Positions 12,766 through 30,592 of a DNA stretch of 34,990 nt are shown here, piece by piece; position 1 is the first letter of the stretch, and each line of letters starts with the position of its first letter. The stretch lies in IMG/VR virus record IMGVR_UViG_3300023272_000085, positions 1 through 34,990 of that record. One strand, 5' to 3'. This stretch comes from a virus. A program made the translations under genes and the position numbers. A model generated the notes under the pieces. It searched no databases and was not told where the DNA came from. It was given only the letters and a program-made list of their open reading frames with translations.

Positions 12766-12778
12766 CACTGGAGTGCGA
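12766..12778 (-). promoter_or_regulatory. Start-associated motif, copy 1 (fibre module)
   Basis: Sense TCGCACTCCAGTG followed by GGGGTG and the ATG at 12759. It fills the 27-base gap after the tail protein I-like gene. Confidence 0.7.
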
Positions 12779-12786
12779 TCAAGCCC

Positions 12787-13527
12787 TCAGATGCCGATCG
12801 GGATGCGGATCACTTTGCCGCCAGCGCCCCATTTGCCGCCGCCCGACCCCCACTTCCTTGGCGGGTAGCCCCAAACCCGACGACCGGGGCTTAGTAGGAC
12901 GATCACGCCCCTACAATGCGCGGCGTTCCATTCGGTCGGCACGAGCACGAGGTCACGAACTTGAGCGGGTGAAAGGCTCCCGGGAGCGACGCCCCAAAGA
13001 TTACCGTTGCCGCCCCAATTGGCTCCAGACGCGCCCCACAAGCCCAGAGGATTGATGGCAGTGGGCCAGTGATAGATCAACGTCCAGCGAGCCCATTGAG
13101 GCAGGTTGATGGAGCCGAAGTCCACATCGTCTCTGGTGATCGTGCCATCCGTCGCGAGCGAATAGCGCCGCCCGGTTGGATAGATGAGCTCGATCGGAAA
13201 CGGGGCTTGGGCAAAGTAGGCGTGAAGCTGAGCCAAGAGCGAGTACGGATTGCCTCGCGTCAGATGATCGTCGAGCCAGCGCCGTAGCCTCGGGGCGTAC
13301 ACGGAATCGGGCTCGACACTGCCGCGCCGGATCTTCCGGTCGCTACCTAGAAGCGCTAGAGCGTCTGGCCTCGCTTCGTTGGGAAATCGAGCTTTGACCG
13401 CCTCGGTGGTGGCATCGCCCAAAGCATCAAACTGGATCCCGAGGGCGTTGGCGATCTTTTGCGCTAGGCCGTTGCGGAGCCACCACGGCAAGATTTGGAG
13501 CAGTGTATCGCGGAAGGTGGTGAGCAT
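12787..13527 (-). CDS. Phage tail protein I-like (baseplate wedge)
   Basis: The 246-aa product follows baseplate J directly (stop and start share one base), the standard place of the P2 gpI/Mu gp48-like wedge protein. Early residues form a hydrophobic helix pair (LLQILPWWLRNGLAQKIANA), then DALALLGSDRKIRRG and ESVYAPRLRRWLDDHLTRGNPY-like segments common to this group. The C-terminus is rich in Trp and Gly (GLWGASGANWGGNGNLWG). It probably bridges baseplate wedge and fibres. Confidence 0.65.
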   Translation of the reverse strand: MLTTFRDTLLQILPWWLRNGLAQKIANALGIQFDALGDATTEAVKARFPNEARPDALALLGSDRKIRRGSVEPDSVYAPRLRRWLDDHLTRGNPYSLLAQLHAYFAQAPFPIELIYPTGRRYSLATDGTITRDDVDFGSINLPQWARWTLIYHWPTAINPLGLWGASGANWGGNGNLWGVAPGSLSPAQVRDLVLVPTEWNAAHCRGVIVLLSPGRRVWGYPPRKWGSGGGKWGAGGKVIRIPIGI

Positions 13528-14726
13528 CAGAGCCCCGGTGGTTTGAGCTGGATGACCGTGCCGTTCACTGCCCCGATGGTCGGCACCTCATCGGGACCTA
13601 GGAGGAAATCGCCGGAAGGTGTCGCGATCTCGACCTTCATGGGCAAAAGCGCAACTCCCTGAGGGGTCACGGCTCCGCCGATCGCGGACTCGATGGCCGA
13701 GAAATAGATCCTGCCGCTCGTGACCCCGATCAGGTTTCCACCGATCGGCTGATTGGCGATGAAGGTCGCGAGGTTGGCTTGGACGACGTCCTTGATCTGC
13801 TGCTCGGTCAGGCCGGACGTGTTGTAGAGCCAAATCGTGTAGGTGATGTCGACCTGCGCCTCGATGGCCGAGAACGTGTTGAGCGTGACGGCGAGCGGAG
13901 CGGCCTTCCGCTGCATGGCGTCATCCACGATGCCCAAAGGGGTCGCGAGGTTTCCGATCGTTCCGTCAACTCCACCATCAGCCTTGCCGAGGTAAACGTT
14001 GACGTTTCCGTACCCGTCGTTCGTGACCCGAACTCGCGTGATACCGAGAGAGCTCCCGTTGGCATCCACGGCCGAACGCGCCACGAAGGCATAGGCATCT
14101 GATGGCCCGTTGGGGCTCAGACTTCCGAGCTTGTCGAGGCAACGCTGACGAATCGAAGGGTCCGATTCCGCGTCGGTTCCGATCGCTGCTGTGTCGTTGG
14201 TGACGGTGACGTTGGGCGAGAGGCCCGCAGTCTGAAACTGGCTGATCTCACCCGGGTACGAGGTGCCAGCCGAGCCGGCCGTGTACGCTTGGACGATTAC
14301 GTCCTCGACGGTCGCGCCGCTGCCGATCGTGACCGACTCGACGTTAAAGTACGCTTGATGGGTGGTCGGGTTCAGGATCTGGAGGTCGCCGGGGTCGAAT
14401 GAATAGACCCCGCCCCCCGAATTCACGAACGTGACGGCAGTGGTGGCAAAGGTGGCGGGGATGCGCTCGACAGCAAAGACCTCCCTAGCGACATTCGTCA
14501 GCCAGTCGCCGGTAGCGGTCGACAGAAAGCCCGATTGAGCCAGCAGGGCCGTGAGGTTGCTGAGCCCCGAGGCGACGACCGCCACACCAGCGATCAGTGT
14601 TCGGACTACGGAGCCGGGCTTCCACGCGGTGGTGGTGACGCCCGTGGCGGCAAGGACGCTGTAGATCGATCGCTTTACGTCATCGACCGAGAGCGGCTTG
14701 GTGAGTTCAGCGAGGGAGAGCGGCAC
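13527..14726 (-). CDS. Baseplate J-like protein
   Basis: It starts with GTG at 14726, right after the start-associated motif. The 399-aa sequence has the baseplate J layout: an N-terminal helical part (KPGSVVRTLIAGVAVVASGL), the 'FLSTATGDWLTNVAREVFAV' segment, the 'AGTSYPGEISQF' turn and the C-terminal 'VDITYTIWL' and 'GGNLIGVTSGRIYFSAIESA' strands. Baseplate J forms the wedge that triggers sheath contraction. Length is normal for P2/Mu-type J. It sits between gp25-like and gpI-like genes, as expected. Confidence 0.85.
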   Translation of the reverse strand: MPLSLAELTKPLSVDDVKRSIYSVLAATGVTTTAWKPGSVVRTLIAGVAVVASGLSNLTALLAQSGFLSTATGDWLTNVAREVFAVERIPATFATTAVTFVNSGGGVYSFDPGDLQILNPTTHQAYFNVESVTIGSGATVEDVIVQAYTAGSAGTSYPGEISQFQTAGLSPNVTVTNDTAAIGTDAESDPSIRQRCLDKLGSLSPNGPSDAYAFVARSAVDANGSSLGITRVRVTNDGYGNVNVYLGKADGGVDGTIGNLATPLGIVDDAMQRKAAPLAVTLNTFSAIEAQVDITYTIWLYNTSGLTEQQIKDVVQANLATFIANQPIGGNLIGVTSGRIYFSAIESAIGGAVTPQGVALLPMKVEIATPSGDFLLGPDEVPTIGAVNGTVIQLKPPGL

Positions 14727-14730
14727 CCCC

Positions 14731-14743
14731 CACTGGAGTGCGA
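14731..14743 (-). promoter_or_regulatory. Start-associated motif, copy 2 (baseplate J)
   Basis: Sense TCGCACTCCAGTG, then GGGG and the GTG start of baseplate J at 14726. It occupies most of the 19-base gap after the gp25-like gene. Confidence 0.7.
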
Positions 14744-14745
14744 TG

Positions 14746-15231
14746 TCACGTCATCGCGGCGTTGATGGCCTCTAGCAAAGCCTCGCCATCAACCACGCTC
14801 ACGACGAGGCTAAAGGTCGTGAGCGCCGGGTCTGCGGGCGTGATCAGGATCGTGATCCGGTACGTGGACGGGAGCTCGAACGTCATGCTGACCGCCACAT
14901 CGACGATGCGGTCATCCTTGCGGAGTTCGCTCGCCATCTGACCGGACCAGCTTTGAATTTGCTGCGGGCTTTGCGGTTTGTTCAGCGCGGCCCGGATGTC
15001 GATTCCGTAGCTTGGATCATCGATCAGGCTAAGCCGCGCTGTCGTGATTCGATGAAATGAGTCTTGGGCCAGGCTCTCGATTGTGGCCGGGTCCGTCTCG
15101 GTCAAGTAGGGGTCGAGATCGGTGACACACACGAGGTCGACGCCGTAGCCGAGAGGCGGTACGGGCGTGCTGGACTGCCGAGTAAGAGCTGCGATTTCGG
15201 CCGCAATCATTTGGCGAACAATGTCGGTCAT
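14746..15231 (-). CDS. gp25/gpW-like baseplate wedge protein
   Basis: A 161-aa protein whose central region carries DLDPYLTETDPATIESLAQ, then RLSLIDDPSYGIDIRAALNK, a pattern seen in small baseplate wedge proteins located just before J. The C-terminus forms strands (YRITILITPADPALTTFSLV). It overlaps the upstream gene by ATGA. In the contractile system this protein joins the sheath base to the hub. Assignment rests on motif pattern and gene order. Confidence 0.65.
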   Translation of the reverse strand: MTDIVRQMIAAEIAALTRQSSTPVPPLGYGVDLVCVTDLDPYLTETDPATIESLAQDSFHRITTARLSLIDDPSYGIDIRAALNKPQSPQQIQSWSGQMASELRKDDRIVDVAVSMTFELPSTYRITILITPADPALTTFSLVVSVVDGEALLEAINAAMT

Positions 15232-15728
15232 GGTGTCGTCCGAAAGACCTCAGCAATCGCGAGCCACGAGGCCGGGATGTTCGTCGCGAAAATCAGAGCG
15301 TTGATGTGCTGGGTTGGGCCAAGGCCACCGGGCAAGCCAGCCGTGAAGGCGCTCGTTACCGTGCCGCCAAAACCACCAGCCGTGCCGTCATAGGCGTAGG
15401 CGTGCACGCTCGCCGCGAGCAGGCTCAGCAAATTGAAGATTTGTAGGAGTTGAAGCCGAAGTGTCTCTGTGAGCGACACCACGAGATTGATTTGGGCCGT
15501 CAGTGGCGGAGCTTGGAGTCCTAGGGCCAAGCCCGTTTGAAGGTTGTCCAGGATGCCGGCCGACAGTGTGATGAGCTGCGACATGTCGAGGCCCACCGTT
15601 GCGCTGAACCCCAGCAGGGCATTGATTCGGGACTGAAGATCGGCCTGCGCGGCCATCAGTGGCCCGATGAAGCCGGGCATGAGGTCGAGCAATGACGCCT
15701 CACCGATGTAGGTCAGCGTGTCGGCCAT
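15228..15728 (-). CDS. Hypothetical baseplate-region protein, 166 aa
   Basis: The sequence is unusually hydrophobic and helical (LLDLMPGFIGPLMAAQADLQ, LRLQLLQIFNLLSLLAASVH) with a Gly-rich C-terminal part (GTAGGFGGTVTSAFTAG). No signal peptide is evident. It sits between the hub/spike gene and the gp25-like gene and is overlapped at both ends, so it is probably a baseplate or tail-hub component. I do not recognise a family. Confidence 0.55.
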   Translation of the reverse strand: MADTLTYIGEASLLDLMPGFIGPLMAAQADLQSRINALLGFSATVGLDMSQLITLSAGILDNLQTGLALGLQAPPLTAQINLVVSLTETLRLQLLQIFNLLSLLAASVHAYAYDGTAGGFGGTVTSAFTAGLPGGLGPTQHINALIFATNIPASWLAIAEVFRTTP

Positions 15729-16906
15729 CAGGCGGCCCTGACCTTGTCGCTACACGTGGTGATCGAGCCCACAGTTTGGCCGGTCGCGCAGATCATGACC
15801 CCGGTTGCCGGTACTCCGCCGATGGTCCCATTGAACACGAATGGCGGAAGCGGGAACGTCACGGTGTCTCCCTGACGAGCCACCCCGGGGCCGTCCTCGC
15901 CTCCGAGCTCAAGCAGGGTTGGTACCGCCGCATCGTTTCCACGTCCCTCGAAGCCAGTGATCAACGGATCGTCCCGCATTCCGTCGATGAACTCGACGTA
16001 CACGATCGCACCGTTGGTCAACGTGGCGTGAGCACCCGCAATGCCCGGAGCCATCTGGACCCGGAGCATGTCGGGAGGGACCGTCAAAGAAGTGGTGCGC
16101 TTGACCCACTGAAGGTCAACGGCCGTTCCGTTTTGGGCAACGACCCTGTAGCGGAACTTGCCGGTCAGACGCTGGTCCGTGAGGCGCCCGACGATCGAGC
16201 GCATGGTCTGCGTCAGGAACGACTCGCCTTTGACACCGCACCAAACTCGGACCCGGAGCGAACTCGGGGCGATGGCGATCTCCATCTGCCGGACCGTAAC
16301 GGGTGTGGACAGCCTTTGTGCGTCAACCAGGGCTGAGCCGATCGTCACGGCATCGATCGAGTCGACCGACAGGACCGCTACGTTCGAGCGAGGGTCGTAG
16401 GACAGAAGAGTATAGGCACCGGGAGCCGGCACGTTCGGCCGAGTTCCGACGTGAGTGATGCCCGAATAGTCGACCCACCAAGAGGCACCGCGGGCAGCGT
16501 CTTCAAGCGTCCTTGATGCCGAGCCTGATTCTCTCGTGTAGTGCGCGCCCAAACGGTCGGCAGTACCAGCGAACGAGCCTAAAGTTTCCTTGACGGCCGA
16601 GGCAGCGTCCCCCGCCACTGTGCTGGCCTTGATGCCAGCGTCATTGGCGTAACCGCGAGCGCCGATCGACTTCTGCCAGCCATTCGCTCCGGCCACGATG
16701 CGCGCCGAACGCTTTTCGCCGAACGTGCCGGATTGATTGGGGTCGATCGTGCCGATGAAGGTGACAGAGCCGATCACCAGCTTCACGGGTCCGTCCGCGA
16801 CCTCGGGAGCTGAGTCGAGCCAAGACACATCAGCGAACCACGGCCCCTGGTAGGGGATATGGATCGAGGCGCGCTCGATCGGCCGGCCTCCACACGTGAT
16901 GCTCAC
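15728..16906 (-). CDS. Baseplate hub with spike-type OB domain
   Basis: A 392-aa protein. The N-terminal half contains segments typical of gpD-like hub proteins (VKLVIGSVTFIGTIDPNQSG, ASRTLEDAARGASWWVDYSG, PAPGAYTLLSYDPRSNVAV). The C-terminal part contains IVYVEFIDGMRDDPLITGFE followed by GRG, the hallmark of the gp5/VgrG/gpV OB fold, in which a beta barrel sits at the spike base. A single gene therefore carries hub and spike base functions. A 'GDTVTFPLPPF' strand segment closes it. ATGA overlap with the upstream gene. Confidence 0.75.
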   Translation of the reverse strand: MSITCGGRPIERASIHIPYQGPWFADVSWLDSAPEVADGPVKLVIGSVTFIGTIDPNQSGTFGEKRSARIVAGANGWQKSIGARGYANDAGIKASTVAGDAASAVKETLGSFAGTADRLGAHYTRESGSASRTLEDAARGASWWVDYSGITHVGTRPNVPAPGAYTLLSYDPRSNVAVLSVDSIDAVTIGSALVDAQRLSTPVTVRQMEIAIAPSSLRVRVWCGVKGESFLTQTMRSIVGRLTDQRLTGKFRYRVVAQNGTAVDLQWVKRTTSLTVPPDMLRVQMAPGIAGAHATLTNGAIVYVEFIDGMRDDPLITGFEGRGNDAAVPTLLELGGEDGPGVARQGDTVTFPLPPFVFNGTIGGVPATGVMICATGQTVGSITTCSDKVRAA

Positions 16907-17421
16907 TTGGCCAGCTCCTGGAACTGCTTGGTCAGCTGCTCGATCTTTTGGTCGTAAGGGTCCGTGCTCTTGTTGACGGCCGCAGCTTCGGGCTTGGCAA
17001 GCGCGAACTTGGGCTCACGGGTTTCCAAGAACTTGATCGCGATCGTGTAGGCGCCCGTATCGCCGTCTTCCTCAGGCTGACCCACTTCCTCGACACCAAC
17101 GGAGCTGATGTCGAGGAAGTCCAACCACGGATGCCAGATCGACATCGACTTGGGCTTGGTGCCGTTCGGTGGACGAGCGACGAGGGACTGGAATGAACTC
17201 CAGTCAGTCCAGTCTTGAGCGGTGATCAAATGAATGGTCGCGGTAAACTTGCTGATCTCGCGACCTCGATAGACCGTCACGCCACCGGAGAGGCCGTAGC
17301 CGGCTCGGATGTCCCACTTGCGAACGTCAGCCGCGCCGCTGATGACAGCAATGCCCGGCGACTTCTGACCTGCGAGCAAGAAGTAGTCGACCGGTGTGAG
17401 GTACGGATCGTACGCGGCCAT
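16903..17421 (-). CDS. Tail/baseplate connector protein, 172 aa
   Basis: Pattern of a small tail protein located between tape measure and hub in myovirus-like elements: DYFLLAGQKSPGIAVISGAA, DVRKWDIRAGYGLSGG, TIHLITAQDWTDWSSFQSL, then a SIWHPWLDFLDISSVGVEEV strand pair and a VIK-type end. The C-terminus is a charged helix (DQKIEQLTKQFQELAK). It probably joins tail tube to hub. The type is known to me from similar gene clusters, but the family has no settled function name. Confidence 0.6.
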   Translation of the reverse strand: MAAYDPYLTPVDYFLLAGQKSPGIAVISGAADVRKWDIRAGYGLSGGVTVYRGREISKFTATIHLITAQDWTDWSSFQSLVARPPNGTKPKSMSIWHPWLDFLDISSVGVEEVGQPEEDGDTGAYTIAIKFLETREPKFALAKPEAAAVNKSTDPYDQKIEQLTKQFQELAK

Positions 17422-19379
17422 CAGGGCACCACCGCGCCAAGTTCAGATGCCGAACCTGCGAAGATCTTGAAGACCAGATCCTTGAAGGCTTCGGCGTGTG
17501 CCTCGGGGGTGTCCGTTGCCGAATGAAGGTGTACTTCGCCGATGTGGACGGACGGTGCCGATCGAGGTTGTGGTGCCGGAGCTCCGTACGAGCCAAAGAT
17601 CGACGGACCCCTGGCGGGCTGCGCATGGGTGCCCTCGGGAGGGGGCTGGCGTTCTCGGGGTCCGGTCGGTAGCGACACAAGGCTTCGTCCTTCGCTTCGT
17701 CCTCCGAGCTGCCGAGTCGGGAACGAAACCAAGCTCTGAACGGCCCGCCGAACCTCCGGCCTTCCGGCATAAATGCCGCTCGCCACGCCTCTCGGGACCT
17801 CGATGGCGGATCGCATCGCAACCCGAGAGGGTGATGCGATCCCGAGCTTGGCCCGGAACGCCTTCATGGCGGACGTGCCGAGGTTTTCAATCGCCCGGAT
17901 GACCCAAGCGGCACCGCCCTTGATGCCCTCGACCAAGCCTTTGACGATGTTGCCGCCCGCGTCGTACGCCGCTACCGCTAGACTTCCGAGCGCTTTGACG
18001 CCGTAGTACAGGCCGGCCCCGAGCGCGACGATCGCCACGTAGGGGAGCATCAGCAGAGCCGCGACGTTCGCCGCGACTACGCCAACGAGAACGAGGGCTC
18101 CCACCATGCCGTAGAGCGCGATCTTGCCGGCCGTCACGGCTAGGCTCAGCGTGTCGATGTTTTTGAACAGCTTGGTGTCGCCGAACGTGTCGCGGAACCA
18201 GTTCCGAAGTTTGAGGACGACGATCCCGACCTGGAGAGCCGCGATGATCATCCCTTGGAAGAACCGCTTCATGAGCATGGACGCGGGTCCGCTCACTTGA
18301 TCGATCAGCGGGCCGAAGAGACCCTCGATGATCGCCTTGAGGGCTCGACCTGATGCACTGCTTTGGCTGAACAGCTCGGTGATCTTTTGGACGCCGGTCA
18401 GCAGCTTGTCGATCTTCAGGCCCGAGAACAGCATCGCGAAGCTCTCGCGAAGCTTCCGGCTTTGCACATCGAGGCTCAGCAGCTGGGCAGCGGCTATGCC
18501 TCCCAAGCGGGCTTTGACGTCATCGGCCAACGCCCGGACGGAATGACCGGTGAGGCCGGCTGCCAAGGCCATCCCCTTGAAGGCACCAGCGGCGGCTTCG
18601 CCCTGGGTTGCCGCAGTGATGGCCACACCCTGGAGCGCGGCCTGGAGGTTCCCGCCTCGCAGACCCGTGCGGTACAGGTCCTCGGCGTATCCCACCACTT
18701 GCTCACGCGAGAGCGCCACGGAGGCCGATACGTTGTCGATCGTGCTCTGGAGAAAGCTGGCTTTATCGGCCACCGGTCGGAAGCCAGTGGCCAGCGACAG
18801 GTAGCTGTAGCGGAGCTTGCCTAGCGCTTCGAGGTGCAACAGCTCATTGCGTCGAGCGTTGGCGACACCGACGCCGTACTTGAGCAAAGCAGCGGTGCCG
18901 ACACCAGCGGCGGCCGTGACGGCCAAGATGGCAGCCGCGACAGCAACAAGTCCCCCGGCCATCGCTCCGCCACCGAGGATTGAGCTCAGGCCGCCAAAGC
19001 TGGACGTGAGTTTCCCGAGAGGGCCCGGTGCTGATTGCACGACCTCCGTGAGGCTCTTGAGGCCGGCCCCCGCTTCCTTGCCGCCCTTGCCGATGTCGCG
19101 GAAGGTGCCGCCCATTTGCACGTAGCTCTGCGTCGTGGATGCGATCGTCGCCTTTTGGGCGCTGATCCGATCCTTGAGATCGCGTGCGACCTGGATGTTG
19201 ACCGCGGACCCGCCTTGAAGGTTCCGCAGTGCCTTTTGCATCTCCCGGAGCGCGGCTGTGTCGCCCTGGATCTTGGTTTGCAGATCCTGGAGGGCACGCG
19301 CTTGATCGCCCGCGAACTGGCCGGCGTTACCGTCCAGTTCCAGGCTAAATCTTGCTACTGCGTCACTCCCGCTGGCCAT
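17421..19379 (-). CDS. Tail tape measure protein
   Basis: At 652 aa it is the longest protein of the tail assembly block. The N-terminus is a long helix (ARALQDLQTKIQGDTAALRE), then a hydrophobic helix region (residues about 135-170, GGLVAVAAAILAVTAAAGVG) and a second group near 390-470 (YGMVGALVLVGVVAANVAAL). The C-terminus carries a 'FRAKLGIASPSRVAMRSAIE' segment, a motif typical of tape measure ends. Its ATG overlaps the TAA of the chaperone extension (TAATG). The short length predicts a short tail. Confidence 0.85.
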   Translation of the reverse strand: MASGSDAVARFSLELDGNAGQFAGDQARALQDLQTKIQGDTAALREMQKALRNLQGGSAVNIQVARDLKDRISAQKATIASTTQSYVQMGGTFRDIGKGGKEAGAGLKSLTEVVQSAPGPLGKLTSSFGGLSSILGGGAMAGGLVAVAAAILAVTAAAGVGTAALLKYGVGVANARRNELLHLEALGKLRYSYLSLATGFRPVADKASFLQSTIDNVSASVALSREQVVGYAEDLYRTGLRGGNLQAALQGVAITAATQGEAAAGAFKGMALAAGLTGHSVRALADDVKARLGGIAAAQLLSLDVQSRKLRESFAMLFSGLKIDKLLTGVQKITELFSQSSASGRALKAIIEGLFGPLIDQVSGPASMLMKRFFQGMIIAALQVGIVVLKLRNWFRDTFGDTKLFKNIDTLSLAVTAGKIALYGMVGALVLVGVVAANVAALLMLPYVAIVALGAGLYYGVKALGSLAVAAYDAGGNIVKGLVEGIKGGAAWVIRAIENLGTSAMKAFRAKLGIASPSRVAMRSAIEVPRGVASGIYAGRPEVRRAVQSLVSFPTRQLGGRSEGRSLVSLPTGPRERQPPPEGTHAQPARGPSIFGSYGAPAPQPRSAPSVHIGEVHLHSATDTPEAHAEAFKDLVFKIFAGSASELGAVVP

Positions 19380-19998
19380 TACTTCGAGTCCTTCGGCGGT
19401 GTCAGCAACCGTCTGATCCGGGTGAGCTCCGCGAGTCCCTCAGCGATCAAAAGTGCTGCGGTCGTGACCCTGATGATCTCGACGTCCTCTTCCGGTTCCC
19501 GCCCGAGTAGACTGGTGAGGACGTCAGCCGCGATCCCGAGGTCGTCTTTGGCCTCCCGACGCAGCTCGACTATTTTCCCGAGAGCCCGTCCTTGCGAACC
19601 CCCGCCAAGTGAGCGATGGCGTTCGCACAGCCGAACAAGATACCGGGCTGCTCGCGGAGCATTTCCTCGAACTCCGGTATCGTCGGGTACTTCACGCAAG
19701 GCGTGACCATCTGACGAACGTTCTCGACCTTGAAGTCTTGCTCCTGAAGGCGGTTGAACGCGGCCGGAGCTGAGCGAAGCAGGATCACTGCGCCCAAGTC
19801 GGTGTCGACCTTGGCAAGCTTCTTCGCCCCGTATTGCTCGACGAGCTTTTCGAGTGCCTGCTCTTCCTTGAGAGCCCGCTCTTCGGCTTCGAGCTCTTCA
19901 GCGAGTGCCTTGTCATCGTCGACTTCGGCGGCTTTTGCCTTCAAGGCTGAGCGAGCCGCTTTTGCGGCTGCCAAACGCTTCTTGATCTCTTCGCTCAC
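19379..19998 (-). CDS. Tail assembly chaperone GT fusion made by -1 frameshift
   Basis: A second frame (to 19379) overlaps the end of the 142-aa gene in the -1 register. Slipping at G-GGA-AAA (19573-19579) right before the first frame's TAG continues as GKIVELRREAKDDLGIAADV and ends KDSK, giving about 206 residues. This reproduces the G/GT arrangement of tailed phages, where the long form bridges tape measure and tail tube. It lies directly before the tape measure gene, as expected. Confidence 0.8.
19570..19998 (-). CDS. Tail assembly chaperone G, 142 aa
   Basis: The frame-0 product starts with a charged helix (KKRLAAAKAARSALKAKAAE, then EELEAEERALKEEQALEKL) and continues with a compact domain (TDLGAVILLRSAPAAFNRLQ, MVTPCVKYPTIPEFEEML). 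It overlaps the tail tube gene by ATGA and ends in the slippery site. Tail chaperones of this type keep the tape measure soluble during assembly and are not in the mature virion. Confidence 0.8.
   Translation of the reverse strand: MSEEIKKRLAAAKAARSALKAKAAEVDDDKALAEELEAEERALKEEQALEKLVEQYGAKKLAKVDTDLGAVILLRSAPAAFNRLQEQDFKVENVRQMVTPCVKYPTIPEFEEMLREQPGILFGCANAIAHLAGVRKDGLSGK
19573..19579 (-). other. Programmed -1 frameshift slippery heptamer
   Basis: Sense G GGA AAA immediately followed by TAG in frame 0 fits the X-XXY-YYZ rule exactly, with the new register matching the downstream open frame. Confidence 0.85.
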
Positions 19999-20474
19999 GG
20001 GCTACCTGCCGATCCGTCAAACTGGGTTTGACCGTTGCGACGGATCGACATGGCATCGATCTCGATCTCTTCCTGGAGGGGATCCGGGTTCTCTTCCTCG
20101 CTGGAGGAGGTGCCGACGTACACGCAACGCTCGATGTCGACGTACATTTCCGGCTCGAAGTTCTCGATGTACTGAGTGTTGATGTGGAACTCGTATTCGC
20201 CGTACGAGTTACCGTCGGGCGACTTGGCGGCGAGCTTGGCCCGGACCGCGTGCATCGTGCTCTTGGGCCCCTTGAGCTTCACGGGCTCGATGCTGTACTT
20301 GCCGCGGGTCCTGGCCCTGGGTGCGTGATGCTTACCCATGCCGTAATGCTTGGTGCGTTCCCGCTTGTCGGAGTACGAGATCGATGTGAAACCCACGAAG
20401 ATCTCGTCGTCAATCCGGAGGGTGATAGAACCCCACGAAACGATGTTGCCGTTGATCCTGATTTGGTCAGCCAT
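19995..20474 (-). CDS. Tail tube protein
   Basis: A 159-aa protein placed directly after the sheath and before the chaperones. It begins INGNIVSWGSITLRIDDEIF and GFTSISYSDKRERTKHYGMG, followed by ARTRGKYSIEPVKLKGPKST and a C-terminal EEEIEIDAMSIRRNG-like strand. This matches the tail tube proteins of contractile-tailed phages that follow the sheath gene. It would form the inner rigid tube through which DNA passes. Confidence 0.75.
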   Translation of the reverse strand: MADQIRINGNIVSWGSITLRIDDEIFVGFTSISYSDKRERTKHYGMGKHHAPRARTRGKYSIEPVKLKGPKSTMHAVRAKLAAKSPDGNSYGEYEFHINTQYIENFEPEMYVDIERCVYVGTSSSEEENPDPLQEEIEIDAMSIRRNGQTQFDGSAGSP

Positions 20475-20489
20475 TTAGCCCCCCGGCCT

Positions 20490-21938
20490 TCAAACTGCTT
20501 GCACCGACGGGTTGCTGAACCCGGTGTTGACGATGATCTTTTTCGGATAGAAGAGCGGGACCAAGCCCTCTTGAACCAAGAGGTCGTTGCCGCTCAGCAA
20601 GTTGGTTGTGCGATTGATTTTCACGAAAGCGTTCGGGCCGAACGCGCCGCCCGATGCCATTGGCTTGGCCATAATCGCCCCTCGGATCGCGGCGTTGCAG
20701 GCCGCTTCCATCGCAACCGCCTCGCTCTCAAGGATGAAGCCAGTCGTGGTGTCGACTTTGATGGGCTTTGACAGACGGCGCTGGAAGTAGATCCGTGTCG
20801 TCCGCTTAAGGAGGTTCATGATCCTGCGGTGCTGGAACCACTGGAAGTCCGATCCCGACGACGAGAACAGACGCGAGTTGCAGACGTAGATGCCTTGCTC
20901 GCCGTCCCACGTACGGAGCACCGTGAAGCGGCTGTCGTCGAGACCCGGAGTGACTAACTCGTCGTGCTCGTCCGGGTTGCCGTTCGCGTCCTTGATGATG
21001 ACTCCGGGCAGGTTCCCGACGTCGATCGCCGCGATGTCGACCTCATGGCTGACCGTTGCCGCCAACGGGGCTACGGCGAACGAGATCGGCCGCTTGTAGA
21101 GCCTGCCGCTTACGGCTGATGAAACCTTGGCGGAAGCCGCCGTCAGCATGCCGAAGGTGGTGCTGAGCGAGCTAAAAATGCCGTCGAGAGCCGTCTTGTA
21201 GGCGGACTCGGATTCACCGATCGTTGGGATGCGCGTATGACCGATCCACGCCTTCTCGGGCATCCCTGCGAAGCTCGTACCGATAGCGGCGAAGCTTGTG
21301 GCGTCGATCGGACCGACAATGGAGACGACATCCCAGGGGATGGTTCCGAGCTTCAGAGCCGTGAGTGCCGGGGTGAGATCACCAGCCGCCCAATTGGGTG
21401 CGATGGTCCGGAAGCTGGCGGTGTCGCCGGCCACGAGGGTGCCGGTTCCGAGCGCGAACCCGATACCGCCGGAGCCAGCGATCGTGATGCTGGTCGCCAC
21501 ACCTAGAGCGGTGACGGCCGACCAAGAACGCCCACCATCGAGGCTCGTTTGGTACGTGATGCCCGTCGTGCCGACCGTTCCGCCTGCAACGACCCTGAGC
21601 ACAACCTCGTAATCGTCGTTTGCGGTCGTGTCGGCACCGACCGTCACAGCGCTTGAGCCCGTGACGCCCGTCGTGACGATCACTGACTCGGTGGCCGCTA
21701 CGGAAGCGGTCGCTCGCACGAGCAGGACCGGCTGGTCATAGGCTGCGATAAAGTAGCAGGCGGCCTCTACGAGCGGGCCAGCGCCGTAGTTTGAGATCAC
21801 GTCTTGCGTGCGTGAAAACGCCGCTGGGGTAGCGATGGGTCCGGAGTCCGAGACCCCGACAATCGCGAAATACGAGGAGCCGCTCGGCAGTACGCCTAGC
21901 GCACCATCGAGCTCGTTGATTTGGACACTAGGCAGCAT
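20490..21938 (-). CDS. Contractile tail sheath protein
   Basis: The ATG at 21938 (MLPSVQINELDG) is preceded by CGGAGG nine bases upstream and by the start-associated motif at 21963-21975; an upstream extension to 21965 has no support. At 482 aa it has sheath features: the N-terminal Q-I-N-E strand, the 'ISNYGAGPLVEAACYFI' segment, and the C-terminal domain 'LLKRTTRIYFQRRLSKP', 'AACNAAIRGAIMAKPMASGG' and 'VKINRTTNLLSGNDL'. Sheath contraction drives the tube through the host envelope. Confidence 0.85.
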   Translation of the reverse strand: MLPSVQINELDGALGVLPSGSSYFAIVGVSDSGPIATPAAFSRTQDVISNYGAGPLVEAACYFIAAYDQPVLLVRATASVAATESVIVTTGVTGSSAVTVGADTTANDDYEVVLRVVAGGTVGTTGITYQTSLDGGRSWSAVTALGVATSITIAGSGGIGFALGTGTLVAGDTASFRTIAPNWAAGDLTPALTALKLGTIPWDVVSIVGPIDATSFAAIGTSFAGMPEKAWIGHTRIPTIGESESAYKTALDGIFSSLSTTFGMLTAASAKVSSAVSGRLYKRPISFAVAPLAATVSHEVDIAAIDVGNLPGVIIKDANGNPDEHDELVTPGLDDSRFTVLRTWDGEQGIYVCNSRLFSSSGSDFQWFQHRRIMNLLKRTTRIYFQRRLSKPIKVDTTTGFILESEAVAMEAACNAAIRGAIMAKPMASGGAFGPNAFVKINRTTNLLSGNDLLVQEGLVPLFYPKKIIVNTGFSNPSVQAV

Positions 21939-21962
21939 CGAGGATGACCTCCGGGTCAACCT

Positions 21963-21975
21963 CACTAGAGTGCGA
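21963..21975 (-). promoter_or_regulatory. Start-associated motif, copy 3 (sheath)
   Basis: Sense TCGCACTCTAGTG (one base from consensus), 24 bases before the sheath ATG. Here the G-run is replaced by a separate CGGAGG ribosome site, so the motif itself is not simply that site. Confidence 0.6.
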
Positions 21976-21990
21976 GACTCGATAACTGCC

Positions 21991-22560
21991 TTAAGGGTCG
22001 GGGACGATCTCTACCGGTGGATCGCTTTCAGTCGAGTTGTCCGGTCCAACAATGAAGCCAGTTGCTTCACCCGCTGTGCCGACCTCAGCGAACCTAAACG
22101 GCGCGTCCGGGATCACCGCTTGAATGGCCCCAACGACCTTGAGCGCGGCACCAAAGCGTCCCTCTTTGCGCGTCATGTCCCACGCTTGGGACTTGATCGC
22201 GAACGTGCCGACAGCTGCCAAGTAGACGGCACGGAGCCACGCATCGTAGTTCAAGCGGGCTTGATGGTACTGAGCACGATCGTCTTCCTTGGCTTGCGGG
22301 TCAGCTCCGACGATCAAGCACGTGAACAGCTCGTTGAGCATCGCCAACGGGCGAGCCGGGAGGCCGCCGGGATAGCGAGGGCCGCCGAGGTCACCGAGTG
22401 CGCTGGAGCCATCGCTGGGCGTCCAAATGATCCGGTTCGGATTCCCGCCTTGCCGTGGAGGCTCCTTCCAACCGAACGTGTTTTCGATCAGCGTCTTCTC
22501 GTCGGCGAACCGTTGGACGACCTTGTCGAACAGGTTTTCGAGCGCGAAGATGACGGCCAT
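21991..22560 (-). CDS. Tail completion/terminator-like protein
   Basis: A 189-aa protein between the morphogenesis gene and the sheath. It starts with FALENLFDKVVQRFADEKTL and contains IENTFGWKEPPRQGGNPN, PLAMLNELFTCLIVGAD, and a helix pair around RLNYDAWLRAVYLAAVGTF. Gene order places it where neck or tail terminator proteins are found in Mu-like and P2-like phages. The fold is not certain from sequence. Confidence 0.55.
   Translation of the reverse strand: MAVIFALENLFDKVVQRFADEKTLIENTFGWKEPPRQGGNPNRIIWTPSDGSSALGDLGGPRYPGGLPARPLAMLNELFTCLIVGADPQAKEDDRAQYHQARLNYDAWLRAVYLAAVGTFAIKSQAWDMTRKEGRFGAALKVVGAIQAVIPDAPFRFAEVGTAGEATGFIVGPDNSTESDPPVEIVPDP
22252..22263. repeat. Palindrome-like CAAGCGGGCTTG
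   Basis: Leftmost of the seven CAAGCNGGCTTG sites, inside the tail completion gene (codons for QARLN). Confidence 0.4.
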
Positions 22561-22970
22561 CAGCGCCCCTTCGTCATGTGGGCGTTGAAGCGCTTGATCG
22601 ACACGGCCTTGACGGCTTCGGTCATGGGTTGGGGAAGCCGTGAACTCGGGAGGATCTGCCGGCGGACGTTGCCTCGGGCGGCCCCAAGGTGATGTAGCGC
22701 GACGTGGCCTTCGAGCTTGGCTTGGACCACTGAGCTGATGGCTCTAACCGTGAGGGCCGCCCCTGCGTTGGTAAGTGGCTTCTTGCCGTCCTTGGTCAGC
22801 TGCCAAGGCTTACCCTCAGGGTCCACGCCGGCGCTGATGTTCTTGCGGATCTCGGCGTCGAGGACGGGCGCTACGTCTTTGGCGATCTCGGAGGGAAGAG
22901 CTCCGAGCGTGTTGACCTTGTCGATCCAACCCTGCATTTCGGCGAACGCGGCCCCGTTATCCCGAGCCAT
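22560..22970 (-). CDS. Virion morphogenesis / gp10-like neck protein
   Basis: I use the ATG at 22970 (MARDNGAAFAEM), which has GAGGA five bases upstream; the longer frame to 23159 lies in the upstream gene. The 136-aa sequence has ISAGVDPEGKPWQLTKDGKKP, a pattern shared by Mu gpG-like and HK97-gp10-like morphogenesis proteins (usually G-x-D-P-x-G-x-x-W). It joins head completion and tail attachment. The start overlaps the upstream connector gene by 14 bases. Confidence 0.65.
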   Translation of the reverse strand: MARDNGAAFAEMQGWIDKVNTLGALPSEIAKDVAPVLDAEIRKNISAGVDPEGKPWQLTKDGKKPLTNAGAALTVRAISSVVQAKLEGHVALHHLGAARGNVRRQILPSSRLPQPMTEAVKAVSIKRFNAHMTKGR

Positions 22971-23442
22971 TGCGATCCTCTTGGCGTCCGATCGCCTCTT
23001 GCTGATCCATCCACACGTACGGGCTGGACTCCGTGTAGGCCAACGGCGCGCCACGAGTGATGCCCTGACCGCCGGGAGCGTCCTGCCTGAGCGGGAGCTC
23101 ATACAAGCCATCCTTGGCATTGGCCGCCTCGGCGAGTTCGTCGACCGCTGCCTTGGCATCGTCTTGGACGGCTACGATTTGGGCGTCGGTATTGTCGACG
23201 CCACGCTTCAAGTAGATCTTGGGTGTGACAAGCCTGGCCAACCACCCTTGAACGACGATCGGCGGTGAGTCGACGTCGAACGGTGTCGCGTACCTCTTGG
23301 CCAGTCTGGAGTCGATGTAGCCGCTCCAAAATGCGAGCTGGCCATCGACCCACCCGGGTTGCTGAGTCTCGATGTAGTCGACGTATTCGCTCGGGCAAAT
23401 CGCCAAGTCGGTGAACGTTTCGACCGTGAGATATGCGGCCAT
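22957..23442 (-). CDS. Head-tail connector, DUF1320/Mu gp36-like
   Basis: A 161-aa protein beginning MAAYLTVETFTDLAICP with WVDGQLAFWSGYIDSRLAKRY, then PFDVDSPPIVVQGWLARLVT, the layout of the Mu gp36-like head completion protein (a helical adaptor with a conserved 'D-x-R-L-x-x-R-Y' helix). It lies right after the capsid gene, separated by a hairpin. The C-terminus is a charged linker. Confidence 0.7.
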   Translation of the reverse strand: MAAYLTVETFTDLAICPSEYVDYIETQQPGWVDGQLAFWSGYIDSRLAKRYATPFDVDSPPIVVQGWLARLVTPKIYLKRGVDNTDAQIVAVQDDAKAAVDELAEAANAKDGLYELPLRQDAPGGQGITRGAPLAYTESSPYVWMDQQEAIGRQEDRNGSG

Positions 23443-23461
23443 TCAGAACCCCCAAAGACGA

Positions 23462-23483
23462 AAGGGCACCGTGAGGCGCCCTT
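23462..23483 (-). terminator. Hairpin after the major capsid gene
   Basis: Sense AAGGGCGCC and GGTGCCCTT pair over nine positions (one G-U) around a TCAC loop, 27 bases after the capsid stop; TCGTCTTT follows. This is a plausible partial terminator that would raise capsid mRNA over the genes downstream. Confidence 0.55.
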
Positions 23484-23510
23484 CAATCCTGCTTGACCAA
23501 CCCGCTAGGG

Positions 23511-24554
23511 TTAGGTCGCGTCAACGCGAAAAATCAAATACGGCATTCCGGGCGCCGTGGTGTTCTCACCCCGGGTGATCCATTGGAGGCCGTTGTCGAT
23601 GGCGAGCTGAGCGTCAGTGACACCATCGTTGTAGACGATGCGGAACGGATTCCTCACGCCGTAGACGATCGCGCCAAGCTGGCTTGATGCGGCCTGCTCG
23701 GCCACCAAGTAGTAGCTGGTGTCCGAGCCGCCGAATGCTGCGCCGAGTTCGGGCGCTTCAATGGGCTCGATGCCCCAACGGCTGATGAGTCCTGAGATAT
23801 CGCCCGAGCCGCCACCAGAGGCAGCGCCCATGGCGATGAACTTGGCGTCTGTCACAAGCGTTGCTCGGGTTGCGAGCTTGCTCGGGTAGATCAGCTTCTT
23901 GACCTTCAGATTGCGGGGAAGCAATCCGTTGGCCGTGGGCACCACTGCGATTTGAGCAATCGCCTTGGAGAGATTGTTGATCGCGACGTCGAGGGTTGCC
24001 GCGTTGGTCTCGTCGATCGGGCACGCTCCGGGTTGCACACCGGAAGCCGATCCCTTGAACCAGTTGCAGTAGACACCGGGCGACGGATCGAACGGATTGA
24101 GCGGATGATCGACCGCGAACAACGCCTTGCCGTCGAAAGCGATCACGGACGTGCCGTTCTTGATCAGGTTCGCGGTCTGGCGCTGCGGCCAGTGCGCGAA
24201 GAGCTCACCCTGCATACGAGCCCACTCGGTGGCGGAGCTCACGCCGTTGCCATCGAGGTCCTCGAATTGGTTCCTGTTGATCCGGTAGCCCTTGGTGGCC
24301 GCCTGGTAGCTGATCTCGGTGCTAGCCGTAGCGAGTTCTTCGAACTCGACAGTAGAACCGAAACGATCGCCCGTGTAATCGATGTCCGCGGTGTCCAAAA
24401 ACCAGGTGAAGCGCTCACGCTTACTACGGAGAGGTGTCTCCTTGGCAACGTTCGCCCACCAGTTCTTGGCTAGGATTTCATTGTATGCGTTCTCGGCAAT
24501 GAGACGCATGTTGGACTCAAGGTCCCACGTAAAAGATGGTGTCAGAATAGCCAT
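23511..24554 (-). CDS. Major capsid protein, Mu gpT-like
   Basis: A 347-aa protein with the head of gpT-family capsid proteins: LTPSFTWDLESNMRLIAENA, WWANVAKETPLRSKRERFTW, then TEWARMQGELFAHWPQRQTA and the FDGKALFAVDHPLN turn near residue 140 that is characteristic of Mu-like capsids. The C-terminus has NPFRIVYNDGVTD and a TTAPGMPYLIFRV end. It follows protease/scaffold and decoration genes. The upstream gap holds an AGGG ribosome site. Confidence 0.85.
   Translation of the reverse strand: MAILTPSFTWDLESNMRLIAENAYNEILAKNWWANVAKETPLRSKRERFTWFLDTADIDYTGDRFGSTVEFEELATASTEISYQAATKGYRINRNQFEDLDGNGVSSATEWARMQGELFAHWPQRQTANLIKNGTSVIAFDGKALFAVDHPLNPFDPSPGVYCNWFKGSASGVQPGACPIDETNAATLDVAINNLSKAIAQIAVVPTANGLLPRNLKVKKLIYPSKLATRATLVTDAKFIAMGAASGGGSGDISGLISRWGIEPIEAPELGAAFGGSDTSYYLVAEQAASSQLGAIVYGVRNPFRIVYNDGVTDAQLAIDNGLQWITRGENTTAPGMPYLIFRVDAT
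23675..23686. repeat. Palindrome-like CAAGCTGGCTTG
   Basis: Variant site inside the capsid gene, read in another codon frame (SSQLG) than the QARL sites. Confidence 0.4.
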
Positions 24555-24595
24555 GTCCTGCCCTAAAATTCCCGCCCCTAAAGCTCAGACAGCGA

Positions 24596-25018
24596 TCAAG
24601 CCGGCAGCGCCAGCTCGACGAGAACGCCTTTAGTGGCGTCGACTTTCCAGACGCGACCGGCAACCGATCGAGCGCTGGAGTTGGATGTTTTGGCGACCGT
24701 TTGATCGTCGACCACGTAGCAATTGGAGCCGACTTCGGTCTGAGCGATCAGATCGGTTGAAGCCGAGTTGACGAACCACATCGCGTTCAACTCACGGAAG
24801 AACTCGACGTTGGCAGTTCCGCCGGAGGCCACGAGCTGGTCCTCACGGTAACGACCGATTGGAATGAGCGTGGTTGAAGCCGCGCCCTTCTTGACCAAGC
24901 CGGTCGACGTGTCAAAGCACGCCATGCCGCCCTGGTAGACCTGTTCAGCTGTGCTGGGCAGTGCCATGCCGGTCGATTTCACGACCCGGGTCATGCGCAT
25001 CTTTGCGAGCGCGGTCAT
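24596..25018 (-). CDS. Capsid decoration/cement protein
   Basis: A 140-aa beta-rich protein between protease and capsid. It has LPSTAEQVYQGGMACFDTST, LIPIGRYREDQLVASGGT, and QTEVGSNCYVVDDQTVAKTS, the pattern of the DUF2190-like 'capsid cement' proteins that trimerise on the shell. It overlaps the protease stop (ATGA). The next gene, after 41 bases, is the capsid gene. Confidence 0.65.
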   Translation of the reverse strand: MTALAKMRMTRVVKSTGMALPSTAEQVYQGGMACFDTSTGLVKKGAASTTLIPIGRYREDQLVASGGTANVEFFRELNAMWFVNSASTDLIAQTEVGSNCYVVDDQTVAKTSNSSARSVAGRVWKVDATKGVLVELALPA

Positions 25019-25611
25019 TTGCTACCCCCTTGAACCGTGACGGCGCCGAACACTTGCGAGTTCGCCTCGTAGGCGACGCCTTGAGTCTTCTTGATGAGCC
25101 CCATTTGCTCGTTGAGTTCAGCGTTGCTGCTCAGCCCTGGGCGACCGCCGTTAGCGCCCAAGGTCGGGCGAGTCGCCGGAAGGGTCATGTGTGGATTGAC
25201 GAAACCGGCAGTGACCGGAATCGCATCGAGAACCGCCTTGAGAGCGCTCGTGGGAGTGGCCTTGAGGGACTCGATCAACTCGGGTTTCACGTCCGGGCGA
25301 GCCGCGAAGAGCGAAGCACGCTTGGAGGCGTCCGCTTCTGCCTTGAGGGCCTGGAGCTCTGCCTGCTGAGCCGCAACCTGCTTGGCCAACGGAACGACCG
25401 CCTGAGCGAGCGAGGCACTTGCCTTGCTGTCTTCGTCGTCCTTCTTGGCCGGCGTTTCGTCCTCACCCTTTGCGGCGTTCTCGTCGTCATACGCCGCGAG
25501 AGCCCGCTTGGCCTTGCCGGCCTTTTCTTCGTCATCGCTTTCGGAAGCGGTCACGAGGGCTGCTCGGACAGCGTCTTCCTTCGGCTTGTCGTCTTTATTG
25601 TCGTCTGCCAT
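25015..25611 (-). CDS. Possible nested scaffold protein (internal start)
   Basis: An in-frame ATG at 25611 ([13 protein letters not shown]) begins exactly where the protease domain ends. GGAG lies nine bases before it and a start-associated motif at 25633-25645. The 198-aa product would be a coiled-coil scaffold. This reproduces the lambda C/Nu3 arrangement, in which the scaffold is translated from within the protease gene. Confidence 0.55.
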   Translation of the reverse strand: MADDNKDDKPKEDAVRAALVTASESDDEEKAGKAKRALAAYDDENAAKGEDETPAKKDDEDSKASASLAQAVVPLAKQVAAQQAELQALKAEADASKRASLFAARPDVKPELIESLKATPTSALKAVLDAIPVTAGFVNPHMTLPATRPTLGANGGRPGLSSNAELNEQMGLIKKTQGVAYEANSQVFGAVTVQGGSK

Positions 25612-26397
25612 TGATGGGGTCTCCGTCGTCTGCACTGGAGTGCGAGACGCGGTGATCCGTTCGGTGAACGCCGAAAAAGACTCGACTGAGTCCGCAAGCC
25701 CGACCCCGATGGCGTTGGCGCCCACGAAGACGGCGGCCTGATAGGCGGCTACCGTCTCGGGCGTTAGACCCCTTCGCTCAGCTACGAGTGCGAAGAACAC
25801 AGCCGCCGTTTGGTCGACCGTCGCTTGCATGGCCTCAAGGACCGAGTCGGTCGTCCCAGCGTGCGGGTTTCCGTCGGCCTTCCGGGCTCCGCTCTTGATC
25901 ACCGAGTAGGAGAGGCCCATCGCGCCATCGAGCCGTGTGGCGTCGACCAACATGGCGATGACGCCGATGGACCCGATGACAGCCGTATCGGAGATGGAGA
26001 TCTCGTCGGCCGCGCACGCCAGGGCGTAGGCGGCTGAGCAGCAAGCGGCGTCCGAGTGAGCTACGAGGCGCTTGCCGGCAGCCGTGGCGATCTGCCGGAT
26101 TTCCCTACTGGTATCGAAGTTTCCGAAGACATCGCCACCGGGCGAGTTGATCTTGAGCACCACCGTCGTGATGCCGGGAGCCGCACATGCGGCGCGCACC
26201 TCATCGACGATCTGGCGGTAGCTTTGGAAGTGCGCGTCGGCTCCGTGAACGAGCGGCCCGCTGATCTCGACACACGCCACAGAAGGGGAGAGCATGCAGA
26301 GCTCGCCCGCTTTCGGCGCTGCTTGGTAATCGAGGCCGTAAGCCTGTTGCTGGATCGCGACGATCCCCCGAGGGGCGTACGCCCGTAACTCGCTCAT
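25015..26397 (-). CDS. Head maturation protease (S49) with scaffold-like C-terminus
   Basis: A 460-aa protein. Residues about 1-230 are an S49 (SppA/ClpP-like) protease: [13 protein letters not shown] (84-96), the nucleophile segment [12 protein letters not shown] with S121, the strand [15 protein letters not shown] and the [16 protein letters not shown] segment with candidate catalytic Lys. Residues about 263-460 are charged and helical ([40 protein letters not shown]), as in phage scaffolds. An internal in-frame ATG at 25611 would release this part separately. The start overlaps the portal stop (ATGA). Confidence 0.8.
25633..25645 (-). promoter_or_regulatory. Start-associated motif, copy 4 (inside protease gene)
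   Basis: Sense TCGCACTCCAGTG inside the coding sequence (S-R-T-P-V), 21 bases before the internal ATG. Flanks GTCT and AGAC extend the inverted repeat here. Confidence 0.6.
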
Positions 26398-27773
26398 GCT
26401 GCTTTCCCCTGTGCTCCGGGCTTGTCAGCCGGCGGAGGTGCGTCTGGTTTTGGTCCCGGCCCCAAAAGTTCTTCGTCGCCCGGGTCGGGAGTGCCGTCAG
26501 CGACGGGGATCCCGAAGCGAGCGATCATCTCGTCCACGTCCAGCCGCTTCTTGCTCTTGGCGAGGACGGCCCTGAGCTTGTCGATCGCGTCGCCGAGACC
26601 GTTGAGCGCCTTGGCTTCTTTTTCCCGGTCAGCCGCTGGATCGGTGTCCCACTCGATGCGCGGGCTCTCGGACAAGGCATCCGGCCCGAACTCGCTGAAC
26701 ACGTAAGGCGGTAGGATCTGTGTGTTGATCGTGTGGCTCAGGCTGTCGGCCGTGAGCTTGATCAAGTCACTGCGGATCGTCTGGTGAATGGCTGCGTTCG
26801 CGAAGCCGGTGCCGCCGTCAACCGTAACGGTCTGACCGGCGAGCGAGATCATGATCTCGTTGTCGGAGGTTGCTACCTCGGTCCCGAAGACCTCCCACCC
26901 ACGGCCGTTGCTCTCGACCAGCGACACCGTCCACCCCGGCGGCATCTCAAAGACCGAGTTGACGCCCCACGAAATCAGGCTGGCGAGGAAGCCCTTCCGC
27001 TGTTCCTCGGTCGCGCCTTGAACGGTGGTCGCTACACGAGCCGGGTTGGCGAGCTTCGAGCTGAAATTTGCTCGATTGCTGAGAGCGTGCTCTTTATGGA
27101 TGTACGCTCGCCCGAGTGCGGGCCATAGCCCGGCATGCCACGGCGATAGGCGCGCACGGCAGTGCAGCACCCAACGGCCATCACCCGGCGTGATTGGCAG
27201 TGAGCCCGCGACGCTCTGATAGAACCAGCGGTCTTTGGACCAATCGTAGTAGAGAAATTCGGGGTCCAGCCGCTGAAGGACGGGATACGACCGACCCACC
27301 ACGGGGACGAGTTCGGCCACCCCTACGCCGAGAATCATCTCGTCGGCAGCCAAGAGCGCCAATTCGGTCGGGGGGCAGAGCTCGTCAAAGACGCTTCTCG
27401 TGGCGGTCTGAGCCGTGAGCGTCTCGATGATCTTGTCGTTGCCTCGCCACCTCTTGGGCAGCGAAACGAGGCCGGATGTGCGGGTTTGCGTAAGCCCGTT
27501 GATCAGGCCGTCACGCCGCATGGCGCGGTGAAGCTGCCCGGCGGTCCGCAACCGACCGGAGTCACATTCGTGGACGATTCGCTCTAGGTCAGCGAGGTAC
27601 CAGCGAGTCTGTGTCGATACGAGCGGCTGGATCTGCCCGCCCATGGCGCGCCGAATGCTGTCGACGTTCTCGGAGCCGAGATCCGGCATCGAGTTCGGCG
27701 CCATCGCCGAATACGCGGAGATGCCCAGCAACGCCTTCGCGGCATCTCGGAAGCGTGTGGCGAGCGGTGGCAT
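26394..27773 (-). CDS. Portal protein, DUF935/Mu gp29-like
   Basis: The ATG at 27773 follows directly after the start-associated motif and a G-run. The 459-aa protein contains segments typical of Mu gp29-like portals: [76 protein letters not shown] and the C-terminal [20 protein letters not shown]. The last 40 residues are Pro-rich. It forms the dodecameric ring that docks terminase. Confidence 0.8.
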
Positions 27774-27778
27774 CCCCC

Positions 27779-27791
27779 CACTGGAGTGCGA
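27779..27791 (-). promoter_or_regulatory. Start-associated motif, copy 5 (portal)
   Basis: Sense TCGCACTCCAGTG followed by GGGGG and the portal ATG at 27773, in the 25-base gap after the terminase stop. Confidence 0.7.
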
Positions 27792-30014: not shown

Positions 30015-30592
30015 TGCCCGCCCCTCGTGGCGTCGATCGCTCGGGCCACAGCTCGAAGGGCGTCAGGCCATGGCGTAAGGGCCTTGATGATCTTGCCCTC
30101 AAGGATCCGCCAGTTGGGCGAGTCCAGGATCTTGCGCTCACTGATGGAGAGGCCGACTCCCGTCAGCTTGCCCAGCATCACCAGCGTCTTTGCGGCGTTG
30201 GCCAGTAGGGCCGCTCGTCCCCGGGTGTCGTTGGCGAGCGTCGGGATCTCGGCCCTGAACCCTTCGAGCTCCGCTAGCCAATGGTCCGCTTCAGCGATGA
30301 CGGCGGCTGCCGTGGCCTTGCGTGGCTTCCGTCGCTTTTTGGATGGCGGCGATTTCGCCTTCGGCTGCCGCGAAGGATGCGGCGCAGCTGGGGCAGCTGT
30401 CGGCGGTTGGTCGTCCCAAGCAGTCGGCTCTGGACCACCGAGCGCGTGGATCCGCTTTCGTGTCTCGGCGCCCGGCCGGACCTTGCCAGCACGCCAGCGG
30501 CTTACATTCGCTTCAGCGGTCTTAAGGAGCGCGGCCCATTCCGCGCCCGTCCGGTGATCGTTGCTAAATTCGAGTGATCCCTTGGAGTTCAC
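30011..30592 (-). CDS. Candidate terminase small subunit
   Basis: A 193-aa protein opening the virion operon, with an N-terminal HTH (residues about 15-48: TGAEWAALLKTAEANVSRWR and GKVRPGAETRKRI), a basic Lys/Arg-Pro linker (KAKSPPSKKRRKPRK) and a helical C-terminus (EADHWLAELEGFRAEIPTLA). This layout, DNA-binding HTH then oligomerising helix, fits a small terminase and the gene is two positions before the large subunit. GTG at 30592 is used; no strong ribosome site is visible. It could alternatively be a regulatory protein. Confidence 0.55.
   Translation of the reverse strand: MNSKGSLEFSNDHRTGAEWAALLKTAEANVSRWRAGKVRPGAETRKRIHALGGPEPTAWDDQPPTAAPAAPHPSRQPKAKSPPSKKRRKPRKATAAAVIAEADHWLAELEGFRAEIPTLANDTRGRAALLANAAKTLVMLGKLTGVGLSISERKILDSPNWRILEGKIIKALTPWPDALRAVARAIDATRGGQ

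Follow-up and report, generated by a model that had tools for sequence, protein, structure and literature searches.

What is the function of a 13-bp sequence that recurs, always in the same orientation, ahead of a subset of genes in the virion operon of a phage? The question is raised by the IMG/VR record IMGVR_UViG_3300023272_000085, which was analyzed over its entire length of 34,990 nucleotides (hereafter the window; G000 in comparisons). Its gene order is that of a contractile-tail phage: probable small terminase (terS), sigma factor, large terminase (terL), portal, S49 protease, decoration, capsid, neck genes, sheath, tube, tape measure, baseplate W, J, tail gene I and the fibre side. A preliminary description of this DNA had proposed that the repeat is a phage-wide signal for the translation or transcription of modules. 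We favor, at a probability of roughly 0.8, a reading in which the five copies are the cores of late promoters that would be used by the host RNA polymerase together with a sigma factor encoded by the phage itself. Recognition of the motif by this sigma factor is what we infer from their co-occurrence among relatives, from the anatomy of the sites and from precedent in other phages.

The 13-mer (TCGCACTCYAGTG / TCGCACTCCAGTG) occurs five times in the window (Table 1), always on the minus strand and hence in the sense direction of the virion operon. All copies are exact except the one before the sheath gene, which carries one mismatch (TCGCACTCTAGTG). With up to one mismatch allowed, 0.09 copies are expected by chance, none of 100 shuffles reached five, and the plus strand has no copy. 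The positions and sense direction first reported were verified, as were the genes to which the copies had been assigned: portal (26394-27773), sheath (ATG 21938), baseplate J (13527-14726), the gene beyond tail gene I, towards the fibres (ATG 12759), and a start inside the head-protease gene (ATG 25611). Two other statements needed revision. The motif had been placed in the only sizeable gaps; however, gaps of 41 bp (24555-24595) and 68 bp (23443-23510) are free of it. Nor is the signal phage-wide: a scan of the whole record returned no further match, and all five copies lie within the virion operon, where they do mark the heads of modules.

This marking extends to relatives. In G001, a 46.7-kb record whose portal is 88% identical to that of the window, the motif is found at all five orthologous places, and the two genomes agree in 62 of 65 motif columns as against 439 of 584 flanking positions (p 6e-5). 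At the scaffold site, the identity spans 28 bp. In a third relative, the short L032, the sheath copy is identical to that of the window and a scaffold copy shows two changes. Besides G001, an exact search of IMG/VR returned matches in unrelated contexts only.

More than 30 related loci were collected by profile searches with portal and terminase, and counterpart motifs were found in them by a de novo repeat scan and by pattern scans. G028 has seven sense copies of GCACTAAACTA, at portal, protease, nested scaffold, sheath, tape measure, W and fibre, with no antisense copy at up to one mismatch. G010 has six exact sense copies of CGGTGGTAYRM (CGGTGGTATAAT-type), at portal and scaffold, before sheath, before tape measure, at the I/fibre junction and at a later tail gene, with no exact antisense copy. 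Four copies of CAGTTCCTTAG are present in G016 (portal, scaffold, before sheath, I/fibre junction), five of GGYGCTAYRMT in G009 and three of a CCCCCTCWAGT-like motif in G008; G011 has a weak GCGGAATAG-like motif. The position inside the protease gene is common to G008, G009, G010, G016 and G028, and the junction of tail gene I with the fibre side carries its own motif in G009, G010, G016 and G028. At least six motif types thus occupy the same gene boundaries: the positions are conserved, and each phage uses a sequence of its own consistently. This is the pattern expected for the sites of a diverging trans-acting factor.

A candidate for such a factor is encoded between the probable terS gene and terL. 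The protein specified by 29430-30014 belongs to the sigma-70 family (PF04542, E 6e-6; RpoD, E 4e-9 over residues 5-166). A structure model built from seven sequences reaches a pLDDT of 74, as against 37 for a single-sequence prediction, and its top 50 fold matches in the PDB are all sigma factors, with E-values above 1e-3 and low TM-scores. A sigma gene lies beside terL in eight records (G000, G001, G009, G010, G011, G014, G016 and G028), and all of these other than the window have a terS homologue in the same place as well. Outside the closest pair (66%), the sigma proteins are 18-32% identical, as compared to 42-61% for the terminases (closest pair 79%). Six of the eight proteins retain region 4. 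Those of the window and G001 both end at the beginning of that region, overlapping terL, which makes an isolated sequencing error unlikely.

The sigma gene and the motif go together. In a uniform motif test over three regions, eight records with sigma were compared with 16 relatives without detectable sigma, a set reduced from 20 by the requirement that their records show over 1 kb upstream of terL. The median z was 4.0 with sigma and -0.5 without it; five of the eight records were individually significant as against none of the 16, and no such motif was found in the latter. An earlier position-constrained test on larger regions had less power.

How might a sigma factor read these sequences? 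The G010 motif has the form of an extended -10 element, TGG followed by TATAAT, TATACT, TACAAT or TATGCT, and in our reading of the aligned sites most copies have a TGNAAC-like box 17-18 bp upstream. The G028 motif, GCAC-TAAACT-A, contains TAAACT, which like TATAAT and TATACT in G010 is a textbook -10 hexamer. Its left half, (T/C)CGCAC, recurs in the window motif, where it places TCYAGT in the hexamer position; TCGCAC would then be the extended -10 and TCYAGT the -10 hexamer. Region 2.4 of sigma normally captures an A at position 2 of the hexamer, which TCYAGT does not have. By eye, the aromatic pair W433-W434 (sigma-70 numbering) is replaced by T-C and Q437/T440 by S/A in the window protein; the absence of the A fits these replacements, without being a test of them. 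The window and G001, whose sigma proteins lack region 4, have no conserved upstream box; likewise, little is conserved upstream of the motif in G028 and G016, whose sigma proteins possess this region. Promoters of host type are not enriched in the virion operon (1 found, 2.9 expected).

The distances to the start codons suggest why the motif could be taken for a translation signal. From the motif to the start, they range from 4 to 145 nt across relatives, often being 5-7, and from the putative hexamer they are 5-25 nt in the window. Seven of the eight phages compared have the hexamer 5-7 nt ahead of the portal start codon; spacing is similarly short at J and fibre in the window and G001 and at tape measure, W and fibre in G028, other sites being 9-145 nt away. 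Such variability disfavors a ribosome signal as the conserved function. RNA synthesis normally begins about 7 nt after the -10 hexamer; hence the near sites predict leaderless mRNAs and the far ones ordinary leaders, and both far sites of the window, scaffold and sheath, do have a GGAG or GGAGG in the leader. Given the proposed hexamer, the arrangement typical of leaderless genes (hexamer some 5-8 nt before the start) is seen at the portal, J and fibre sites of the window and at many sites of relatives, and this geometry would account for the association of the motif with starts. At the fibre-side site, an in-frame GTG is nearer to the motif than ATG 12759.

A separate observation comes from G013, a relative with no detectable sigma gene, in which a single GGTGCTAAACTAT (L040:5055-5067) precedes the portal GTG as an extended -10 in leaderless position. 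Perhaps it is one late promoter for the host sigma.

One could envision the following course of events, in which recognition, start sites, leaderless translation and timing are all predicted. The sigma factor would be produced through early or host-type transcription of terS-sigma-terL and, together with host polymerase, would then start late RNAs at portal, at scaffold (continuing into decoration and capsid), at sheath, at J and at fibre. Without region 4, the protein would need no -35 box. Transcripts beginning about 6-8 nt after the hexamer would start on or beside the start codons of portal, J and fibre and be leaderless, while those of the nested scaffold and sheath would start about 15-18 nt before the start codon, with leaders that keep a Shine-Dalgarno sequence. 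The promoter inside the protease gene would allow scaffold and capsid to exceed protease, and a hairpin after the capsid gene, itself a weak candidate, might end part of the scaffold-capsid RNA. It is tempting to go further and see here rapidly co-diverging pairs of sigma factor and promoter that keep their positions and rewrite their sequence, with a region-4-less sigma in the window lineage reading TCYAGT, a hexamer without the nearly universal A at position 2, with leaderless late virion mRNAs and with a protease-internal promoter that sets the scaffold-to-protease ratio. We regard this fuller version as tentative, its chances being somewhat below even.

Several points weigh against the reading as late promoters of a phage sigma. 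TCCAGT is unusual as a -10 hexamer, and the fold matches of the sigma model have the low TM-scores already mentioned. G014 has the sigma gene and no motif that we could find, and the motif of G011 is weak. The sigma-bearing phages share descent, so the 24 records of the association test are not independent cases. Beyond the pair G000/G001, moreover, likeness of motifs does not track likeness of sigma factors, a comparison that offers no resolution. Finally, leaderless translation by the host has to be assumed.

Against these points must be set what the alternatives would require. The copies might act in RNA, where the ribosome or a phage protein would bind them and so favor selected starts. 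For three window copies, only a few bases do separate the motif from a start codon; a further copy accompanies the nested scaffold start, and the start-associated sequences of Cluster K mycobacteriophages are similar in size and position (PMC3203893). However, equivalents in relatives can be as far as 145 nt from the start, within the preceding gene, and hold -10 hexamers with no Shine-Dalgarno sequence; the scaffold and sheath copies have a separate one. Nor does the RNA fold better than shuffles at four of the five sites, the other being the scaffold site (z -2.4), which however lies within coding sequence. We therefore consider a translation signal improbable, and an RNA hairpin was set aside on the same folding result. 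A dimeric regulator, such as a phage repressor, is even harder to accommodate, and we hold an operator to be very improbable. The core CACT-NN-AGTG, to which the preliminary description had drawn attention, forms an inverted repeat in each of the window's five copies; yet the G001 portal copy (CACTCCATTA) has lost this symmetry, and the motifs that G028 (GCACTAAACTA), G010 and G016 carry at these places do not have it. Since relatives do not keep it and folding at four of the five sites does not surpass that of shuffled RNA, the symmetry is probably incidental. All copies have a single orientation, moreover, and a place on or before starts within a polycistronic operon would be unusual for an operator.

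A further idea is that the sites are promoters for some other factor. This could be the host sigma helped by an activator from the phage, a phage RNA polymerase of the single-subunit type, or proteins resembling sigma region 4 that act with the truncated sigma. The last variant draws on two tandem, related open reading frames on the minus strand (1605-2270 and 2248-2955), which share homology with one another and with a locus in G001; their products contain a helix-turn-helix like that of sigma region 4 and could provide the -35 function that the 29430 sigma lacks. T7-like start sites are brought to mind by the run of G that follows three of the copies. Promoters of a T7-like polymerase are made less likely by the -10 hexamers in G010 and G028. 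A search with PF00940 gave no match in the 24 records, as it gave none in control genomes either. A host factor leaves the phage-specific motifs unexplained, and across relatives it is the sigma beside terL that accompanies the motif. On balance, another factor appears quite unlikely. Of the two functions originally suggested for the repeat, transcription is the one that gains and translation, with starts as far as 145 nt away, the one that loses.

Late promoters of a phage sigma factor are of a known kind. In phiEco32 they are read by sigma gp36 (tAATGTAtA) and in phage 7-11 by sigma gp47 (GTAAtg-16-aCTA) (PMC8948821, PMC4331800). The phiEco32 sigma, which has no region 4, reads a single element with transcription starting 6-8 bp downstream, and the 7-11 promoter is bipartite with similar positions; the authors note that promoter locations are conserved and sequences are not (PMC8948821). 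The window is like both systems in having few, short, well-conserved copies before late genes along with a phage-encoded sigma, and its family in keeping positions while sequences vary. It also resembles phiEco32 in having a sigma without region 4 and, on our interpretation, might share with it a single-element promoter with a similarly placed start of transcription. The differences are that these are unrelated contractile-tail phages with other motif sequences and at least six motif types, that one candidate promoter is nested in the protease gene and that putative hexamers lie 5-7 nt before start codons. T4 gp55 and Xpf of PBSX are likewise small phage sigmas for late genes; the T4 late promoter is a short single -10, T4 late transcription requires gp33 and the sliding clamp, and the xpf gene adjoins the terminase genes. 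The likeness to the window would lie in the small late sigma, for T4 also in the short -10 element and for Xpf in the place beside the terminase genes; the sequences differ.

In leaderless genes of Deinococcus-Thermus, a -10 element read by the host RpoD (TANNNT) lies about 6-7 bp before the start codon (PMC12340547). There, too, an element that resembles a start signal acts in transcription, as we suppose for the window; in contrast to host RpoD, the reader would be a phage sigma and the sequences are phage-specific. The start-associated sequence of Cluster K, GGGATAGGAGCCC, is 13 bp long, has an AGGAG Shine-Dalgarno core and lies 3-9 bp from starts in the non-structural half of the genome; where an ESAS is present, the start-associated sequence follows a putative promoter distinct from it (PMC3203893, PMC11373665). 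The likeness to it noted in the preliminary description holds for position (13-bp repeats in one orientation, a few bases before the starts of a subset of genes) and fails for sequence, genome region and spacing. With a motif TCGCACTCYAGTG rather than GGGATAGGAGCCC, all copies in the virion operon and spacings of 4-145 nt across relatives, a Cluster K element was ruled out. Furthermore, and unlike the motifs of the window family, Cluster K sequences are not replaced by others with -10 hexamers. A superficial resemblance to GGGATAGGAGCCC is seen at the G011 portal site, GCGGAATAGGCCCACT-ATG (L038:9985-9993; G011:15786-15794).

A search of open-licence papers for leaderless phage late promoters of such a kind found no direct match. 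What is new relative to phiEco32 and 7-11 is the phage family, the number of motif types, a candidate promoter within the protease gene and the start-adjacent hexamers. The family would offer an example of joint change in promoters and sigma, with at least six late-promoter sequences at the same boundaries, and a warning that a motif situated on a start codon may be the promoter of a leaderless mRNA and not a translation signal. The internal promoter is predicted to help set the ratio of scaffold to protease, usually credited to nested translation alone.

Table 1. Coordinates of candidate promoter cores and of other features in the window.
Feature	Position	Strand	Remarks
Candidate promoter core before portal, TCGCAC-TCCAGT-G	27779..27791	-	Putative -10 27780-27785; ATG 27773 after 6 nt; orthologous copy in G001 TCGCACTCCATTA
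Candidate promoter core in protease gene, before nested scaffold ATG 25611	25633..25645	-	Putative -10 25634-25639; 22 nt to ATG; GGAG in leader
Candidate promoter core before sheath, TCGCAC-TCTAGT-G	21963..21975	-	Putative -10 21964-21969; ATG 21938 after 25 nt; GGAGG in leader; identical in G001 and L032
Candidate promoter core before baseplate J	14731..14743	-	Putative -10 14732-14737; GTG 14726 after 5 nt; identical in G001
Candidate promoter core at junction of tail gene I and fibre-side gene	12766..12778	-	Putative -10 12767-12772; ATG 12759 after 7 nt
Phage sigma factor, regions 2-3, ending at start of region 4	29430..30014	-	PF04542 and RpoD matches; putative reader of the motif
Probable small terminase (terS)	30011..30592	-	Directly upstream of sigma; function suggested by position
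Large terminase (terL)	27799..29433	-	PHROG 2, E 4e-37
S49 head protease gene	25015-26397	-	PF01343
Nested scaffold-like reading frame	25015..25611	-	In protease gene; internal ATG and acidic stretch kept in relatives; probably scaffold, by analogy with nested phage scaffold genes
Possible transcription terminator after capsid gene	23443..23510	-	10-bp stem, T-rich tail; z -1.66; unlisted by consensus scanner, so weak

The window contains a second repeat, the palindrome ATCAAGCSSGCTTGAT, at 22250-22265, 29446-29461, 29887-29902, 31647-31662 and 34953-34968. These five copies at up to two mismatches compare with 0.03 expected; two are inside the sigma gene and one is intergenic, and G001 has one two-mismatch match only. 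Possibly this palindrome is an operator. The minus-strand gene at 9380-12208 encodes a tail-fibre-like protein with a collagen-like Gly-X-Y stretch.

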